From positions 1 to 30,079 of IMG/VR virus record IMGVR_UViG_3300048446_000314: a DNA stretch of 30,079 bases. One strand, written 5' to 3'. A program made the translations under genes and the position numbers. The notes under the pieces were generated by a model. The model was not told the origin of the DNA. It ran no database searches and was given only the letters and a program-made list of their open reading frames with translations. The stretch comes from a virus. This document shows, one piece after another, positions 2,142 through 23,215 of the stretch (positions are counted from its first letter, which is position 1; the number at the start of each line of letters is the position of its first letter).

Positions 2142-4538
2142 ATGGCAGATAATCAATTAAGGGTAACGCTTTTGGGAGATGCTTCCAAACTCAATGCAAC
2201 TCTCAACACTGCTTCAGGCAGATTAAAAAAATTCGGAAAAGGTATTTCATCAGTAGGCAAATCTCTACAAACGAGATTGGCTTTGCCATTGGCTGCAGCA
2301 GGTGGAGCATCAATCAAGATGGCTGCTGATTTTGATAAGTCAATGACAAAAATCACATCTCTTGTAGGTATTGCAGGGGATGAAGTTGATGGAATGCGTG
2401 GGCAGGTCAGAGATATGGCTACTCAATTTGCTGTATCATCTTCTGAAGCTGCTGAAGCATTATTCTTTATTACATCTGCAGGTTTGCGTGGAGCTGATGC
2501 AATGGATACTCTTGAAGCATCTTTGAAAGCTTCTGCAGTTGGATTGGGAGAAACAGCAACGATTGCTGATCTTGCCACCTCTGCGATGAATGCCTATGGA
2601 TCAGATACATTGGGAGCATCACAAGCAACGGATGTATTGACTTCTGCTGTTCGTGAAGGTAAATTGGAAGCTTCTGAATTAGCAGGAGCAATGGGAGCTG
2701 TTCTTCCTGTTGCATCCAATATGGGAGTATCATTTCATGAAGTAGGTGCTGCATTCGCTGCAATGAGTAGAACAGGAACGAATGCTGCTCATGCATCAAC
2801 TCAATTGACTGCAATCCTTTCAGGATTATTGAAGCCAACATCACAAGCTGAAGATGCTTTGAATGCAATGGGATTATCATCTGCAGGATTAAAACAACAA
2901 ATCAAAGAAGAGGGATTGTTATCTACTCTTCAAACATTAAAAACAGAATTTGATCAAAACTCGGATGCTGCTGCACAGGTGTTTCCAAATATCAGAGCAT
3001 TAAAAGGGGTTTTGGATTTATTGGGATCTGGAGCTGCAACAAACGCTGAAATCTTTAATCGGATGAACAGCACAATGGGTGCAACTCAAACAGCATTCGA
3101 TGCAACAAGTCAATCTGCAGAGTTTAAAATGAGAAAAGCTTTGGGAACTGTGAGAGAATCTTTCTCTCAATTGGGATCTCAATTACTCACAGGATTACTC
3201 CCTATATTTCAGCAAGTTACAGGAGCTATTCAGCAAGTATTTTCTGCATTCTTTAATCTTGATTCAGGCACACAGAAATTGATTCTCGGATTGGGTGTTA
3301 TTGCAACTGTATTGCCAACCATTATAACGCTTGTGGGATCACTTACAACAGTGATGGGAGTGCTTTTATCTCCCATTGGATTAGTGGCTGCTGCACTTGC
3401 AGGAGTGGCTTTCATTATATATAAGAATTGGAATGAAGTTTTGCCTGTTGTTGTGGGATTATATAATCAATTTGTTGATCTCTACAATTCATCTGATCTC
3501 TTGAGGGGGATCATCTTCTCATTAAAAGCTGCATTCGTTTCCGTTTTTGCTATTGCAAAATCACAAGTGATGATTTTTGTAACTGCATTCAAAACGATGT
3601 GGAGAGTTATTAAGGAATTTTCTGAAAAGGGATTCAAAGGATCTTTCGGAGATATAATATCTGATGGATTAGAAGAGAGCAAAGGTCATGCAAAACAGGC
3701 AGGAGAGGATATCAGCAATGCACTTACTGATGCCATTGCAGCAACTGCAGGATCACAGCTTGAAAAGAAAACTGTTCAGCAAGTTCAGGGTGCTTTATCA
3801 AATGTGGCACAACAAGCCACAGGATTCGTTCAGGGATTAATCGGAGATGTTGGTGGGGGTGGTGCTGCTGCTCCTGCAAAAGGTGCTGCAGGTGCAGGAG
3901 ATGGAGCTGCTCCTGATACAGTTACAACAGGAGGAGATACAGCAGGAATGCCAGATGAGGAGAAAGTAACAAATATTATTACAAAGCTTCAGGAATTAGG
4001 AATTTCAATGGAAGATATCAAGGATCTTGCTTATTCAATGGGAGAATCAGTTGCAACTTCTTTCAGCAATATGGGAGGAGCAATGATTGATTCTTTAAAT
4101 CTTGCAGAGAATGGATTTCAGGGATTCGTAAAAAGTATGCTCACAATGGTTTTGGATATGATTTCAATGCTTTTGGCAAACGCTGTGGCATCTGCAATCT
4201 CTGCTGCTGTTGTGGCTGCAGGAGGTACAGGATTTGCTGCTCCGTTTACGATGCCGATGTTTATTTCAACAATGGTTGGAGGAGTTACTGCTGCATTTGC
4301 TGCAATCCCAAAATTTGCTGATGGAGGTATTGTTTCAGGCACTACGCTTGGAATGATGGGAGAGTACACAGGAGCAAAACAGAATCCTGAAGTGATCGCT
4401 CCTTTAAACAAACTTGAGGGAATGCTTGGTGCAAAACAGCCACAGCAAGTCAATGTGGGAGGAGAGTTTAAAATACAAGGGCAGGATCTTGTCGTTGCAC
4501 TTCAAAGAGCTGATCGAAATCGAGGTAGATTAAAATAA
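2142..4538 (+). CDS. Tail tape measure protein
   Basis: About 798 residues from ATG 2142 (a TTG at 2133 would add three). The N-terminal third has the tape measure pattern, with a coiled-coil LNATLNTASGRLKKFGKGIS start and a TP901-like core (MAADFDKSMTKITSLVGIAG, ITSAGLRGADAMDTL, Ala/Gly/Ser-rich helices). Hydrophobic helices follow near the middle (LGVIATVLPTIITLVGSL; LLSPIGLVAAALAGVAFII). Then come a low-complexity Gly/Ala linker and a C-terminal hydrophobic helix pair ending in FADGGIVSGTTLGMMGE, a common tape measure ending. At roughly 0.15 nm per residue it suggests a tail of about 120 nm. Its stop overlaps the next start by one base (TAATG). Confidence 0.93.
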   Translation: MADNQLRVTLLGDASKLNATLNTASGRLKKFGKGISSVGKSLQTRLALPLAAAGGASIKMAADFDKSMTKITSLVGIAGDEVDGMRGQVRDMATQFAVSSSEAAEALFFITSAGLRGADAMDTLEASLKASAVGLGETATIADLATSAMNAYGSDTLGASQATDVLTSAVREGKLEASELAGAMGAVLPVASNMGVSFHEVGAAFAAMSRTGTNAAHASTQLTAILSGLLKPTSQAEDALNAMGLSSAGLKQQIKEEGLLSTLQTLKTEFDQNSDAAAQVFPNIRALKGVLDLLGSGAATNAEIFNRMNSTMGATQTAFDATSQSAEFKMRKALGTVRESFSQLGSQLLTGLLPIFQQVTGAIQQVFSAFFNLDSGTQKLILGLGVIATVLPTIITLVGSLTTVMGVLLSPIGLVAAALAGVAFIIYKNWNEVLPVVVGLYNQFVDLYNSSDLLRGIIFSLKAAFVSVFAIAKSQVMIFVTAFKTMWRVIKEFSEKGFKGSFGDIISDGLEESKGHAKQAGEDISNALTDAIAATAGSQLEKKTVQQVQGALSNVAQQATGFVQGLIGDVGGGGAAAPAKGAAGAGDGAAPDTVTTGGDTAGMPDEEKVTNIITKLQELGISMEDIKDLAYSMGESVATSFSNMGGAMIDSLNLAENGFQGFVKSMLTMVLDMISMLLANAVASAISAAVVAAGGTGFAAPFTMPMFISTMVGGVTAAFAAIPKFADGGIVSGTTLGMMGEYTGAKQNPEVIAPLNKLEGMLGAKQPQQVNVGGEFKIQGQDLVVALQRADRNRGRLK

Positions 4539-8014: not shown

Positions 8015-8772
8015 AAGAAGCAATTGAAACGAATGAGCAATATCATTCAAGTGATGCAATCTCTGCATCTGGATTAAAATTTATTGCAAAGAAATCAGTG
8101 CATCATTTTTTGAACAAGCAATTTCAGGAATCTCCTGCAATGAAGTTCGGAACTGCTGTGCATACTGCAATGCTCGAATCCGATAAATTTTATCAGGATT
8201 ACTATGTAATGCCGAAGGTTGATGGCAGAACGAAAGAAGGCAAAGCTGCAAAGGCAATGCATGAGGAGAAGGCACAGGGAAAGATTGTGATTGATGAATC
8301 AGATCATCAAAGGATAAAAGAGATTATCAAAAATCTTGAATCTCATGATCTTGCAAATCAATACTGCAATGGAGAAATCGAGGTTTCTCATTATGGGCAA
8401 ATGAATGGAGTTGATATAAGAGTTCGTCCAGATTGCAAAAATATGATTGCAGGATGGATATCGGATGTAAAAACTTGTCAAGATAACTCTCCAGATAAAT
8501 TCAAATCAGATATTTACAAATTCAAATATCATATTCAGTCAGCGTTTTATTGTGATGCATTGGGGGTTGATCCTGCTGCGTTCCGATTCGTTGCTGTGGA
8601 AGTCAATCATCCTTATTCAATCGAAGTTTATGGATTATCAGAAGCAATGATTGAGAGAGGGAGATTTGAATATCAAAAGGCATTGGAATCTTGGAAGCTT
8701 TACAAGGATACAGGAGTTGCATTAGGTTATGAATCAGAAAACAGAAATGAAGATGGATCGATTGTTATATGA
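8011..8772 (+). CDS. RecE/YqaJ-type PD-(D/E)XK exonuclease
   Basis: A 253-residue protein of the phage exonuclease family related to RecE/exonuclease VIII (DUF3799 type). Seen in order: SASGLKFIAKKSVHHFL (residues 18-34), GTAVHTAMLE (47-56), the PD at 140-141 in RVRPDCKN, the DVKT at 152-155 that supplies the D-x-K of the active site, and YHIQSAFYCDAL (173-184), the conserved helix near the catalytic centre. It would resect DNA 5'-3' to make single strands for the ERF protein. Gene order (ERF, SSB-like, exonuclease) matches a Red/RecET-like recombination module. Confidence 0.88.
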   Translation: MKEAIETNEQYHSSDAISASGLKFIAKKSVHHFLNKQFQESPAMKFGTAVHTAMLESDKFYQDYYVMPKVDGRTKEGKAAKAMHEEKAQGKIVIDESDHQRIKEIIKNLESHDLANQYCNGEIEVSHYGQMNGVDIRVRPDCKNMIAGWISDVKTCQDNSPDKFKSDIYKFKYHIQSAFYCDALGVDPAAFRFVAVEVNHPYSIEVYGLSEAMIERGRFEYQKALESWKLYKDTGVALGYESENRNEDGSIVI

Positions 8773-11324: not shown

Positions 11325-11449
11325 AAAATAGAATTTTAGAATTAATAAACTTTAATGCAGTGAAATACTTTTTGATTTTTTCAGGCATTTTGTTTTTTTG
11401 GAGTTTAGTAATTATTATTGTTGCAAATTGGATAATACCGATTCCATAA
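11321..11449 (+). CDS. Small single-pass membrane protein
   Basis: Encodes 42 residues beginning in an ATGA overlap with the nuclease gene. After a short basic start (MKNRILELINFNAVKY) there is one long hydrophobic segment (FLIFSGILFFWSLVIIIVA) and a short tail. It ends 16 nt before the primase-helicase start. It could modify the host membrane during replication; the translational coupling supports it as a gene. Confidence 0.6.
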   Translation: MKNRILELINFNAVKYFLIFSGILFFWSLVIIIVANWIIPIP

Positions 11450-11465
11450 ATTTAAATCAGAAACA

Positions 11466-13142
11466 ATGAGAGAAAAACTTGAAGAGCTTGGGATCTTGCT
11501 TAAAAGATCATCAGGATATGTAAAAACGAAATGTCCGAAATGCTCACATAATAGAAAAAACAAATCAGATAATTGCCTTTCCGTTGATATTGATCAGGGG
11601 GTTTATAATTGCCATCACTGTGGATGGAGTGGCAATGTTCGATTTGAAAAGAAAAAAGAATACATAAAACCTCCAAAGATAGCTGCAGAAGTAAATGAGA
11701 GAGTTGTTGAATGGTTTGCATCCAGAGGGATATCAGAGCCAACTGTTGCTCATTGGAAAATCGGAGAATCTTTGGAGTATATGCCACAGGTGCAAAAAAA
11801 GAGAAGATGCATCAACTTTAATTATTACAGGGATAATGAGCTTATCAATGTAAAATACAGAGATGCAGAAAAGAATTTCAAGCTTGTTTCAGGAGCAGAG
11901 CTGATATTTTATGGCATCGATAATCTGAAGGATACAAAGAAATGTTATATCGTGGAGGGAGAAATGGATGCTCTTTCACTGCATGAAGCAGGATTGTACT
12001 CTGTTTGTTCTGTTCCCAATGGTGCATCCAAAGGATCACAAAAACTTGAGTATCTCGATAATTGCCATTCATATTTCAAAGACAAGGAGGAGATCATTCT
12101 TTGCACTGATAATGATGATGCAGGATTGCAATTAAAAAATGAACTTGCAAGAAGGTTGGGATCATATCGCTGCAAATACGTTGATTTTAGCGACTTTAAG
12201 GATGCGAATGAGGTTTTGATACACAAAGGAGCTGAAACGCTGCGAAACATCATTAAAAATGCGAAAAACTTCCCATTGGAGGGTGTTCTTGATCTTGATA
12301 ACATTTGGAGCAATGTTTTATCATACAATGAGAATGGAGTGAAAAATTATTCTTTAGGATTAGGGGAATCGGATAATTATCTAAACATTCAGATGGGAGA
12401 ATGGAGCATCGTGAGTGGCATTCCTAATTCAGGAAAATCAGATATCGTGGATCAGATCCTTTGTAATTTAGCCACAAAGGATGATTTCAGATGTGCAATG
12501 TTCTCCCCAGAATCATTCCCTTATGAAGGACATATCAAAAGGATTGCGAATAAATTAAATGGTAAAAATTGCACTTCAGAAGATCTCAACAATACAAAGG
12601 ATTTCATTGAGGAGCATTTCTTTTGGATTAAGATTGATCTTGAGAATCTAACATTGAAAGGGATTCTGGATGCATTCAGGGATCTTGTTTTTCAAAAGGG
12701 AATCAATGTATGCGTGATTGATCCTTGGAATATGCTTGATCATTCAGCTCAAAGGGATTTCAGCTACGTTGGAAGGATACTCTCCGAGATCACACAGTTT
12801 TGCCAACAAACAAAAACGCATCTTTTCCTTGTGGCACATCCGAGAAAGATTGAATCAGTGGAGGGAGTATATAAGAAGCCAACTCTTTATGATATATCAG
12901 GATCAGCAGATTTTTTCAATAAGGCATACAATGGGATTATCGTTTACAGATGCATAGGGCAAAAGACAAGTTATAAATCCGATGCAGTGAGAATCTATAT
13001 TGAAAAGGTAAAAAGGAAAGAGAATGGGCAGCTCGGAGATTTTGAGGTTGCTCCTGATTTTCTCAATGGTGGGGTTTACAAACCTGTTGATGCAGAGAAT
13101 CGAAAATTTGAAGTAATAAAAGATACAAACATTCCGTTTTGA
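11466..13142 (+). CDS. Primase-helicase (T7 gp4-like)
   Basis: A 558-residue bifunctional replication protein. The N-terminal zinc ribbon has C23-x2-C26 and C49-x2-C52 (CPKC and CHHCGW). The TOPRIM primase domain carries IVEGEMDAL (E164) and CTDNDDAG (D215, D217). The C-terminal RecA-fold helicase of the DnaB type has Walker A GIPNSGKS (318-325) and a Walker B-like VCVIDPWNM, with AHPRK before the final strands. It would unwind DNA and prime the lagging strand. No DNA polymerase gene is visible in the genome, so it must work with the host replicase. Confidence 0.93.
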   Translation: MREKLEELGILLKRSSGYVKTKCPKCSHNRKNKSDNCLSVDIDQGVYNCHHCGWSGNVRFEKKKEYIKPPKIAAEVNERVVEWFASRGISEPTVAHWKIGESLEYMPQVQKKRRCINFNYYRDNELINVKYRDAEKNFKLVSGAELIFYGIDNLKDTKKCYIVEGEMDALSLHEAGLYSVCSVPNGASKGSQKLEYLDNCHSYFKDKEEIILCTDNDDAGLQLKNELARRLGSYRCKYVDFSDFKDANEVLIHKGAETLRNIIKNAKNFPLEGVLDLDNIWSNVLSYNENGVKNYSLGLGESDNYLNIQMGEWSIVSGIPNSGKSDIVDQILCNLATKDDFRCAMFSPESFPYEGHIKRIANKLNGKNCTSEDLNNTKDFIEEHFFWIKIDLENLTLKGILDAFRDLVFQKGINVCVIDPWNMLDHSAQRDFSYVGRILSEITQFCQQTKTHLFLVAHPRKIESVEGVYKKPTLYDISGSADFFNKAYNGIIVYRCIGQKTSYKSDAVRIYIEKVKRKENGQLGDFEVAPDFLNGGVYKPVDAENRKFEVIKDTNIPF

Positions 13143-13363: not shown

Positions 13364-13524
13364 TGAGCATCACATTTTTTCCGATCTATGGGATAACATT
13401 GGGGATCAACTATTGTGATAGTACCCTGCAAGAGATTGAAACTGATGAAGGAGTAGAGGAGCATGTGATTCAGATCTTGTTTTTTATTTTTGGCATAAAT
13501 ATAGTTTGGCAAACAAATGGTTAA
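13363..13524 (+). CDS. Small hypothetical protein
   Basis: A 53-residue ORF (MSITFFPIYGITLGINYC...) starting in a TGATG overlap with the previous stop and overlapping the ParB-like start by 8 nt. A hydrophobic N-terminus, an acidic middle (EIETDEGVEEHVI) and a hydrophobic C-terminal stretch (QILFFIFGINIVW) suggest weak membrane association or a compact core. The tight packing supports it as a gene. Confidence 0.55.
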   Translation: MSITFFPIYGITLGINYCDSTLQEIETDEGVEEHVIQILFFIFGINIVWQTNG

Positions 13525-14101
13525 AAAGGTAAATATCTCCGAAGTAAAGGAGAATCCAGAGAATCCGAGATACATCAGGGATTCAAAATTTAAAAAGCTT
13601 GTAAAATCAATCAAAGAGTTTCCAGAGATGCTCGAAAAGCGACCGATTGTCGTGGATGAGAATATGGTTGTTCTGGGTGGAAATATGCGTTTGAAAGCTT
13701 GTAAATCTGCAGGATTTTTTGAAATTTGGATTGACAAGGCAGTCGGATGGACAGAGCAGCAAAAGAGAGAGTTTGTTGTAAAAGACAATGTTGGCTTCGG
13801 AGAATGGGATTGGGATATATTGGCAAATGATTGGAACTCAAATCAGCTCGAAGATTGGGGATTGGATTCGTGGCAAAATATGGATGATCTGGATACTGAA
13901 GATGAGTTTGATTTGCCTGATGGATCAAAAGAGCCATTTCAACAGATGACTTTCACATTATCTGATGAACAAGCCGAGTTCATAAAAAACAAAATAAAAG
14001 ATGCAAAGGAAACAGAGGAGTTTAAATACATTGAAACTTTTGGCAATGAGAACTCAAATGGGAATGCTCTGTATTTTATGATAAGCAAGTGGGGAGAGTA
14101 A
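13517..14101 (+). CDS. ParB/Srx-fold protein next to Mom
   Basis: A 194-residue protein. The N-terminus is a ParB-like (ParB/sulfiredoxin fold) domain: ENPENPR (12-18), LVKSIKEFPEMLEKRPIVVD, and VVLGGNMRLKACK (51-63), equivalent to the GHRR-type nucleotide-binding box. The partner-binding HTH of true plasmid ParB is missing. The C-terminal half is acidic (MDDLDTEDEFDLPDGS) and then helical. It overlaps the Mom gene by 13 nt, so a role in DNA modification (sequence recognition or nucleotide-dependent step) is more likely than partition; this is inferred. Confidence 0.82.
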   Translation: MVKKVNISEVKENPENPRYIRDSKFKKLVKSIKEFPEMLEKRPIVVDENMVVLGGNMRLKACKSAGFFEIWIDKAVGWTEQQKREFVVKDNVGFGEWDWDILANDWNSNQLEDWGLDSWQNMDDLDTEDEFDLPDGSKEPFQQMTFTLSDEQAEFIKNKIKDAKETEEFKYIETFGNENSNGNALYFMISKWGE

Positions 14102-14748
14102 AGGATATAATCGTTAAGGTAATCAAATCCAAAGCAGCAAATGATTTTGTAAAGAAATATCATTACTCTGGGAAAGTTGTAAATCTTTCAAACCTTCATT
14201 TTGGAGCTTTTCTGGATGGCAAACTTCATGGAGTTCTTTCATTTGGACCTCCGATGGATAAGAGAAAGAATCTCAATCTTGTTGAAACTTCCAATAAGGG
14301 AATCAATGAAAAATGGAATGAAATGCTTGAGTTGAATCGAATGGCTTTTGATGATTATCTTCCAAAAAATTCAGAGAGCAGATGCATATCCGTTTGCATC
14401 AGATTAATCAAAAAGAATGCTCCACAGATAAAATGGATTCTCTCATATTCAGATGCAACTCAATGTGGGGATGGCACAATTTATAGAGCAAGTGGATTTC
14501 AGCTTACTCAAATAAATAAGAATGCAACGATATGGAAATTGAAATCAGGAGAGATCGTGGCAAAGAGAGGAGATTCAAGATACGATTTTGAAAGAGCTGA
14601 AAAATTGCAGGGATTCCAAAATAGATACATATATTTGATTGATAAAAAGGCAAAAATAAATTCTACAATCATTCCATTTTCAAAGATTGATGAAATGGGA
14701 GCAGGGATGTATAAGGGAGAAAAAATAAAGATATCAGAGAGAAAATAA
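14089..14748 (+). CDS. mom: Mom-family DNA modification acyltransferase-like enzyme
   Basis: A 219-residue protein starting at GTG 14089, inside the end of the ParB-like gene. It matches the Mom family (GNAT-like fold; phage Mu Mom makes N6-carbamoylmethyladenine): FVKKYHYSG (20-28), FGAFLDGKLHGVLSFGPPMD (38-57), LELNRMAFDDYLPKNSESRC (80-99), IKWILSYSDATQCGDGTIYR (114-133) and ASGF. The conserved H-Y, N-S-E-S and SYSD...GTIY positions are all present, so it is probably active. The modification would protect phage DNA from restriction. A tRNA-Gly-like element starts 4 nt after its stop. Confidence 0.88.
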   Translation: MGRVKDIIVKVIKSKAANDFVKKYHYSGKVVNLSNLHFGAFLDGKLHGVLSFGPPMDKRKNLNLVETSNKGINEKWNEMLELNRMAFDDYLPKNSESRCISVCIRLIKKNAPQIKWILSYSDATQCGDGTIYRASGFQLTQINKNATIWKLKSGEIVAKRGDSRYDFERAEKLQGFQNRYIYLIDKKAKINSTIIPFSKIDEMGAGMYKGEKIKISERK

Positions 14749-14752
14749 TCAT

Positions 14753-14823
14753 GCGACAAAGGTGTAATGGTTGCACATTTGACAATCCAGTCAAGAGGAG
14801 ACGTTCGATTCGATCTTGTCGCT
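14753..14823 (+). tRNA. tRNA-like element, tRNA-Gly(UCC) type with non-decoding features
   Basis: A 71-nt cloverleaf. Acceptor GCGACAA (14753-14759) pairs perfectly with TTGTCGC (14816-14822); discriminator is T14823. D stem is 14762-14765/14773-14776 with GG in the loop. The anticodon stem 14778-14782/14791-14795 frames the 8-nt loop CAATCCAG, with UCC at 14786-14788. T loop is TTCGATT (14804-14810). Glycine identity features are present (G1-C72, C2-G71, G3-C70, U73, C35, C36). U8 and U33 are missing, and T-stem pairs 49-65, 50-64 and 51-63 are A-C, G-U and A-A. No CCA is encoded. It follows mom by 4 nt and precedes a T8 run. It could be a decayed tRNA. Confidence 0.55.
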
Positions 14824-14835
14824 CAACTTTTTTTT
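14816..14835 (+). terminator. Possible terminator formed by tRNA-like acceptor stem and T8
   Basis: The T8 run at 14828-14835 begins 5 nt after the 3' acceptor strand (14816-14822). The folded tRNA-like RNA followed by U8 could end the early transcript after mom. There is no separate compact hairpin here. Confidence 0.35.
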
Positions 14836-14855
14836 AAAAATTTTTCCTTTTTTCC

Positions 14856-14886
14856 TTGCATAAGTGAAAAAATCTTTTCATATTTG
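14856..14886 (+). promoter_or_regulatory. Promoter with palindromic box before 14908
   Basis: TTG (14856-14858), 20 nt, then CATATTTG (14879-14886), one base off the TAnnTTTG consensus. The spacer contains GAAAAAATCTTTTC (14866-14879), the same box as before the promoters at 6759 and 23208. The ATG follows at 14908. Confidence 0.6.
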
Positions 14887-15225: not shown

Positions 15226-15250
15226 AGCCATCCATTTGGGTGGCTTTTTT
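15226..15250 (+). terminator. Intrinsic terminator
   Basis: AGCCATCC (15226-15233) pairs with GGGTGGCT (15238-15245) around an ATTT loop, followed by T6. It closes the 14908-15201 unit and separates it from the packaging genes. Confidence 0.85.
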
Positions 15251-15254
15251 GTTT

Positions 15255-15262
15255 TATCTTTG
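15255..15262 (+). promoter_or_regulatory. Promoter -7 element abutting the terminase start
   Basis: TATCTTTG matches TAnnTTTG and ends 4 nt before the ATG at 15267. A TTTG at 15235-15238 lies 16 nt upstream, at the edge of the normal spacing. Transcription would start at or next to the ATG, giving a leaderless or very short leader mRNA for the packaging/head operon. Confidence 0.6.
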
Positions 15263-15266
15263 CTTT

Positions 15267-15623
15267 ATGGCAAATAGACAAAATTCGACACTAAAAAAGG
15301 CAATGATTGAAGCTCTGGAAAAATCATTGTGCGTTGTTACAACAGCTTGTAAGCAGGTTGGAATTGATCGGCAAACTCATTATAATTGGCTAAAGAGAGA
15401 TAAAAAGTATGCAGAAGCAGTTGAGAATCTTCAGGATATCACTTTGGATTTTGCAGAGAGCCAATTGCATAAGCAAATCAAAGAAGGTAATACAACAGCA
15501 ACAATCTTCCTTTTGAAAACAAGGGGAAAGAAAAGAGGATACATTGAGAGATCAGAGCTGCAAATCGGAGGAGAAGTTGAAAGCAAAGTAATTGAATGGC
15601 ATCCATCCAAAAAGGAAAAGTAA
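15267..15623 (+). CDS. terS: Terminase small subunit
   Basis: A 118-residue protein from ATG 15267. A GTG at 15240 lies within the terminator hairpin and is not the start. The N-terminal HTH (CVVTTACKQVGIDRQTHYNW, about residues 24-43) would bind the packaging site. A helical oligomerisation region follows (YAEAVENLQDITLDFAESQL, then KQIKEGNTTATIFLLKTRGK, a typical small-terminase phrase), with a basic C-terminus. It overlaps the large subunit gene by 28 nt. Confidence 0.88.
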   Translation: MANRQNSTLKKAMIEALEKSLCVVTTACKQVGIDRQTHYNWLKRDKKYAEAVENLQDITLDFAESQLHKQIKEGNTTATIFLLKTRGKKRGYIERSELQIGGEVESKVIEWHPSKKEK

Positions 15624-23145: not shown

Positions 23146-23184
23146 GTGGCTTATATCTGAAAAGAAAAAAAATTTGCTTTTTTG

Positions 23185-23215
23185 TTTGGAAATGAAAAAA
23201 TCTTTTCTATATTTG
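23185..23215 (+). promoter_or_regulatory. Strong promoter with palindromic box before accessory ORFs
   Basis: TTTG (23185-23188), 19 nt, then perfect TATATTTG (23208-23215): the best match to the Bacteroidota consensus in the window. The spacer holds GAAAAAATCTTTTC (23194-23207), identical to the box at 14866-14879. The ATG follows at 23237. Confidence 0.75.

Follow-up and report, generated by a model that had tools for sequence, protein, structure and literature searches.

The DNA analysed here (the window) comprises 30,079 bases of an IMG/VR virus record, in which genes for phage head, tail, primase/helicase and terminase functions are present. On its plus strand lies a gene of ParB/sulfiredoxin-like fold (13517–14101), for which the Pfam ParB_N match (E = 0.0017) was under the cut-off and PHROG ParB-like/methyltransferase families were matched with E-values down to 2.9e-25. 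This gene is located immediately 5′ of, and overlaps, a mom gene for a GNAT-fold DNA adenine modification enzyme (14089–14748), which is followed on the same strand by a tRNA-Gly-like RNA (14753–14824) and by a gene resembling those of terminase small subunits (15240–15623; PHROG 309, E = 3.2e-10). The cassette consists of the ParB-like gene and mom, joined in most members by the RNA, and it adjoins terminase, being directly upstream of it in the window and likewise in the gene table of Psychrobacter phage Y8A. A ParB-like homologue was found 5′ of mom at all 147 loci examined of the Mom clade that bears the RNA element, versus none of 34 Mu-type loci, and its product may have a role in DNA targeting. 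It should also be noted that an AT-rich promoter-like stretch lies right behind the element (14836–14886), with a copy of 81% identity 8.3 kb downstream (23166–23215).

The mom ORF has a GTG start and a TAA stop codon (14746–14748). Its placement in the Mom family by the initial annotation was borne out by matches to the Pfam Mom family (PF25680, 159 bits against a curated cut-off of 27.1, E = 1.4e-46) and to PHROG 1384 ‘Mom-like’ (E = 1.3e-50). An AlphaFold model of the protein (pLDDT 89) had Mom of phage Mu (8bv8) as its closest fold in the PDB (Foldseek E = 8e-17), with CoA-dependent acetyltransferases of the GNAT fold ranking next and FemX not among the top matches. Residue S124 of Mu Mom, which is altered in the inactive 8bv8 mutant, aligns with S97 of the window Mom, presuming that the numbering of the 8bv8 entry is that of the 241-residue protein, and S97 is invariant in 52 sequences. 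A phylogenetic tree of Mom placed all element-bearing proteins within one clade (SH-aLRT 99), in which 36 of 44 representatives have the element, the presence label requiring four changes. The Moms of Mu, Pseudomonas, Enterococcus, mycobacterial and other sources fall outside this clade and are without the element. A C-terminal GAGMYKGEK-type motif was also found in 145 of 159 members of the element-bearing clade versus none of 34 Mu-type proteins.

The initial annotation had described a tRNA-like element 4 nt behind the mom stop codon, with G1-C72, C2-G71, G3-C70, U73 and UCC, and all of these marks proved correct (mom ends at 14748, the element begins at 14753). Its acceptor helix is formed by GCGACAA (14753–14759) and UUGUCGC (14816–14822) and is followed by the discriminator U73 (14823) and C74 (14824). 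The D arm (14762–14776) has a stem of 14762–14765 with 14773–14776, in which three of four pairs show compensatory changes among relatives. The anticodon arm (14778–14795) has a 6-bp stem (14778–14783 with 14790–14795), all six pairs showing compensatory changes, and a loop AAUCCA (14784–14789) in which C35 and C36 occupy 14787–14788. The T arm (14800–14815) has a stem of 14800–14803 with 14811–14815 that contains an unpaired bulged A at 14813. ARAGORN called no tRNA at the element in the window, and Rfam 15 gave no match in the element region, even at E ≤ 1. The single-sequence folding energy was unremarkable (z = −1.5) and the minimum free energy structure was not a cloverleaf. As both of these tools are blind to the element and its folding energy is unremarkable, the window by itself would not establish it. 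A covariance model (R1) was built from the distinct elements of a first set of 82 close mom loci; on the window it gave a single match, at the element (80.6 bits, E = 1.3e-18), and none elsewhere.

Scoring of stem covariation, as the initial annotation had proposed, was done with 45 distinct sequences. A 21-pair cloverleaf, with a 7-bp acceptor helix and three arms, was found to have 99.9% of its cells paired and compensatory changes in 17 of the 21 pairs. The covariation score was 0.84, versus 0.26 for shuffled alignments and at most 0.18 for slid registers, and RNAalifold returned the same cloverleaf with no structure supplied. In a set of 81 diverse sequences compensatory change was seen in 19 of 21 pairs, this alignment having been made to the model and being therefore biased towards its structure. 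Base statistics were taken from covariance-model matches, since a permissive cloverleaf finder that set no sequence requirements was too noisy. That this RNA family is real is beyond reasonable doubt, and the decisive covariation indicates a conserved cloverleaf RNA encoded beside mom in one Mom clade. The sequence is tRNA-derived and tRNA genes often serve phages as att sites, so that the element could be imagined as the decayed remnant of a tRNA after integration or recombination (an att site or pseudogene). However, the strong compensatory covariation, the retention of identity nucleotides over very diverse phages and the constant position between mom and the gene that follows all contradict this explanation, and its probability is next to nil.

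To relate the RNA to mom, IMG/VR was searched with the window Mom, which gave 80 loci with 59–98% identity; together with Psychrobacter phage Y8A (53%) and the window these form the set of 82. In 79 of them no more than approximately 80 nt separate the element from the 3′ end of mom. In the other three (L040, L042 and L052) it lies approximately 680 nt farther on, behind a second tandem mom copy, so that the search of related mom genes suggested by the initial annotation found an element at every close locus. The element pattern matched nowhere else in the same 459 kb, and shuffled control sequence gave three matches in 9.2 Mb. Among 79 more distant loci of the same clade, on which R1 had not been trained, 64 have a match near mom (E ≤ 0.005), and several of the 15 others have diverged yet recognisable versions. 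A further set of 73 sources gave matches in 56 loci.

In the reverse direction, two nucleotide patterns that describe only the RNA were run against IMG/VR, so that sampling was independent of mom. Among the 239 acceptor-helix matches listed, 227 were within 300 nt of mom, two more within 340 nt and one at 1.3 kb. The remaining nine had no mom in the available piece, and in eight of these the contig ends, on the flank at which mom would be expected, within approximately 260 nt of the element. One clear exception among the matches listed is L335, a phage fragment in which an element with the bulged A (8192–8264, minus strand) occurs without mom in 12.7 kb; additional tRNA-like model matches are present in it at 11379–11531. 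Taken together, the RNA is almost certainly functionally coupled to Mom. No element was found in 80 Mu/Pseudomonas-type Mom loci, where the lone confident match (L528) was rejected as an ordinary tRNA with anticodon CCT. A match in Pseudoalteromonas Pq0 was likewise set aside, being a tRNA-Gly-like gene that adjoins a further tRNA-like gene and has no annotated mom near it. Within the clade, no element was detectable in the locus DNA searched of Treponema (L177), Clostridia (L175) and several gut contigs. Because some clade members and the Mu-type Moms are without the element, the RNA is not universally required, and Moms lacking it would have to depend on the tRNA-Gly of their host or on a different donor.

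Several variants of the arrangement were seen. In phage Y8A (vB_PmaS_Y8A, OQ059336.1; L083) two tandem elements, one at 3623–3688 and one approximately 70 nt on, lie behind a mom gene annotated as a hypothetical protein. In the published description of this phage, tRNA genes are reported to be absent and another Mom, of Mu type (ORF69), to be encoded elsewhere in the genome (PMC10434257). As a cultured phage, Y8A is open to direct tests. Tandem element pairs also occur in L426 (573–725), L435 (2193–2345), L475 (3281–3432) and relatives, and in L425, L426 and L435 tandem elements are found together with tandem mom copies. On plasmid pCB82_1 of Bradyrhizobium sp. CB82, a mom of the clade is accompanied by a D-armless element (L591, 6654–6725) that the covariance model missed and that lies within the annotated CDS WP_283043203.1.

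A spare tRNA-Gly(UCC) aiding phage translation would be the most ordinary explanation of such an RNA, and descent from tRNA-Gly(UCC) is clear; ARAGORN accepts the elements of L006 and L068 as tRNA-Gly(UCC), only a few relatives being called. A translating tRNA would keep the T stem, anticodon loop, D-loop GG and T-loop motif, however, and these are the features that were found to be altered. The uninterrupted 5-bp T stem, where EF-Tu binds, is absent: a near-invariant A is bulged from it, being invariant and unpaired on the 3′ side in all 45 distinct sequences, and a canonical T stem is 61% paired versus 100% when the bulge is allowed. The 7-nt anticodon loop with U33 is not kept, since a sixth stem pair (positions 32-38) that covaries (C-G in 39, U-A in 6) closes it and leaves a loop of mostly 5–6 nt. 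Roughly half of the elements have A or G as N33, and N34 drifts among U, A and G. The D-loop GG is absent in 45 of 81 elements, the T-loop motif is gone in 47 of 81, and the D arm is reduced in some relatives. The bulged A falls in the same T-stem region in which the cell-wall tRNA-Gly of Staphylococcus aureus has lost pairs 49-65 and 51-63, by which it escapes EF-Tu (PMC9976931). Judged by its T stem, anticodon loop, D-loop GG and response to standard finders, the predicted RNA does not qualify as a translating elongator tRNA. As it also occurs essentially only beside mom among the RNA-pattern matches listed, a role as a spare tRNA is considered very unlikely.

In contrast to these losses, the marks by which glycyl-tRNA synthetase (GlyRS) recognises its substrate are kept. 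The glycine identity set is reported to consist of G1-C72, C2-G71, C35, C36 and N73, the latter being U in bacteria and A in archaea and eukaryotes (PMC9976931; PMC3990555; PMC9908026). Among 81 elements fetched through Mom and found by the model, the only sequence bias of which is the preference of the model, pairs 1-72 (G-C) and 2-71 (C-G) were present in all 81, 3-70 was G-C in 77, with C-G and G-U among the remainder, and the anticodon loop contained CC in 78. It should be noted that the model learned from the first set, which had been picked by GCG...CGCTC and CC, both of which every locus of that set had. The CC has been lost from the loop in three elements (L116, L132 and L452), and in L156, L161 and L173 a G3-U70 pair, which is an alanine identity pair, occurs with U73. 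N73 was U in 78 elements and A in three. Two of the latter (L112 and L422) belong to haloarchaeal viruses, as judged from terminase relatives in such viruses, and A73 is likewise present in the tRNA-Gly genes of HGTV-1, a haloarchaeal virus. This occurrence of A73 in haloarchaeal viruses is the strongest single argument of all. The third A73 element (L500, 2762–2833) is in a phage, the host of which is predicted to have A73 in its own tRNA-Gly. A gene-encoded CCA terminates 103 of 227 distinct elements among the matches listed and marks one large subgroup; CCA was a requirement of one of the two sampling patterns, yet many of the loci fetched through Mom show it as well. From these nucleotides the RNA is very probably charged with glycine.

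The RNA could instead be a decoy or sponge that titrates GlyRS, DTD or a host tRNA-targeting defence or toxin (for example GNATs that acetylate Gly-tRNA, or anticodon nucleases) and is merely carried with Mom in an anti-defence cassette. The setting does resemble a counter-defence cassette, the GlyRS marks are kept, and the GNAT toxin TacT reads U73 and G71 of Gly-tRNA-Gly (PMC9976931). However, a decoy of this kind would be expected beside other genes as well, while the element tracks one Mom clade in both bacterial and archaeal viruses, which makes a decoy function very unlikely.

The orientation of the element bears on a further explanation, in which it would act in cis as a regulator in the mom 3′ UTR, a terminator or a processing signal. 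In most loci it directly adjoins the stop codon of mom or overlaps with it, a run of eight T follows it in the window, and the mom mRNA of Mu is regulated at the RNA level by Com (PMC6483171). In the first set, however, 35 of the 82 element occurrences share the strand of mom, whereas 47 are antisense to it. The motif TAnnTTTG, which we take to be the Bacteroidota −7 box, was found 4–12 nt before the antisense RNAs in 11 of 30 distinct upstream sequences, versus a mean of 1.6 and a maximum of five in shuffled sequences. No terminator-like site was found, and a cis function has no role for the glycine identity letters, the A73 switch or the encoded CCA. With more than half of the occurrences antisense and often behind a −7 box, a cis role is very unlikely. 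For the same reason cotranscription with mom, which the initial annotation had put forward, could apply at most to part of the family and fails as a general arrangement.

The element is most likely a trans-acting, phage-encoded, non-proteinogenic tRNA-Gly which would serve Mom as glycine donor. In the proposed mechanism, the RNA would be processed at its 5′ and 3′ ends, CCA would be added (being gene-encoded in one subgroup) and host GlyRS would charge it with glycine. Because its T stem is broken, the charged RNA would bind EF-Tu less well and stay available to Mom, which as a GNAT-fold transferase would take the glycyl group from the RNA and not from a CoA thioester, and place it on the N6 of adenine in phage DNA, whereby restriction would be blocked. 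Acyl transfer by a GNAT would first yield N6-glycyl-adenine, an isomer of the glycinamide-type base; in a hypothetical rearrangement, its glycyl amine could then attack C6 and, with ring opening, convert it into that base. The modification made by Mu Mom is a carbamoylmethyl group, giving a glycinamide-type base and adding C2H3NO. In composition, glycine less one water (C2H3NO, +57.02) is identical to this group in the Mu base, and glycine as the source is supported since carbamoylmethyl adds exactly one glycyl residue. Reading the bulged A or the glycyl end of the RNA as a substrate or activity switch of Mom, instead of as a donor, would fit an enzyme that targets adenine, and, identity letters aside, no unpaired position varies less than the bulged A. 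This explanation would leave the conservation of the complete set of GlyRS identity nucleotides and of the CCA, as well as the A73 switch, unaccounted for, and it is given very little credence.

For Mom, an acyl-CoA donor, for example glycyl-CoA or acetyl-CoA, has been stated or assumed in reviews (PMC7824862; PMC11340752), and this assumption counts against a glycyl-tRNA donor, as do the clade members and Mu-type Moms without an element, the three elements that lost the loop CC, the A73 of L500 and the CoA-dependent GNAT neighbours of the Mom fold. A dedicated, GlyRS-chargeable tRNA-Gly-like donor had been suggested in the initial annotation. Near one-to-one linkage in both directions, covariation, the identity set, the encoded CCA and the A73 switch give it strong comparative support, but it does not extend to Mom enzymes as a whole. 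Of the refuting conditions named in the initial annotation, an absence of elements beside related mom genes and a lack of stem covariation were checked, and neither was observed.

It is suspected that the conserved ParB-like/Mom/tRNA cassette of these bacterial and archaeal viruses represents the first tRNA-fed DNA modification, in which a tRNA-Gly excluded from translation would be charged by host GlyRS and act as the glycine donor of Mom; we regard this broader claim as fairly likely. In the literature searched, which was mostly open-access with preprints outside its scope, no report of tRNA- or glycyl-tRNA-dependent Mom or DNA modification was found, and earlier publication is possible. If the proposal is true, aminoacyl-tRNA would gain a role as donor for DNA modification, one not met in that mostly open-access literature, and could supply Mom enzymes at large; Mu would then draw on the tRNA-Gly of its host. 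An RNA family present in hundreds of viruses and overlooked by standard tRNA finders would acquire a function, and a glycyl-tRNA scaffold orthogonal to translation would become available, together with a prediction of which Moms depend on their own RNA. The question of the Mom donor can thereby be put to a direct test, for which the ingredients are GlyRS, glycine and an RNA and an enzyme that are both small.

Compared with Mu Mom (8bv8; PF25680), the window Mom shares enzyme family and fold as well as the serine equivalent to Mu S124, but Mu-type loci are without the tRNA-like element, the ParB-like partner and the GAGMYKGEK motif of the window clade. Phage-encoded tRNA genes are also tRNA-derived and phage-borne; those serve in decoding, whereas the Mom-linked RNA accompanies mom and no longer has the features used in decoding and by EF-Tu. 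FemABX, MprF and L/F-transferase use an aminoacyl-tRNA donor, as is proposed for Mom, but their acceptors are peptidoglycan, lipids and proteins, and to our knowledge no aminoacyl-tRNA transferase outside translation acts on DNA. TacT is likewise of GNAT fold and recognises glycyl-tRNA-Gly by U73 and G71, but it acetylates the glycine and does not donate it (PMC9976931). There is also a likeness to the non-proteinogenic tRNA-Gly of S. aureus, from which FemX builds cell-wall glycine bridges and which is also dedicated and set apart from EF-Tu by T-stem changes (PMC9976931; PMC4810233). In that system the genes are those of the host and the acceptor is peptidoglycan, whereas the Mom-linked RNA is phage-encoded, has a bulged T stem and is accompanied by a DNA-modifying partner.
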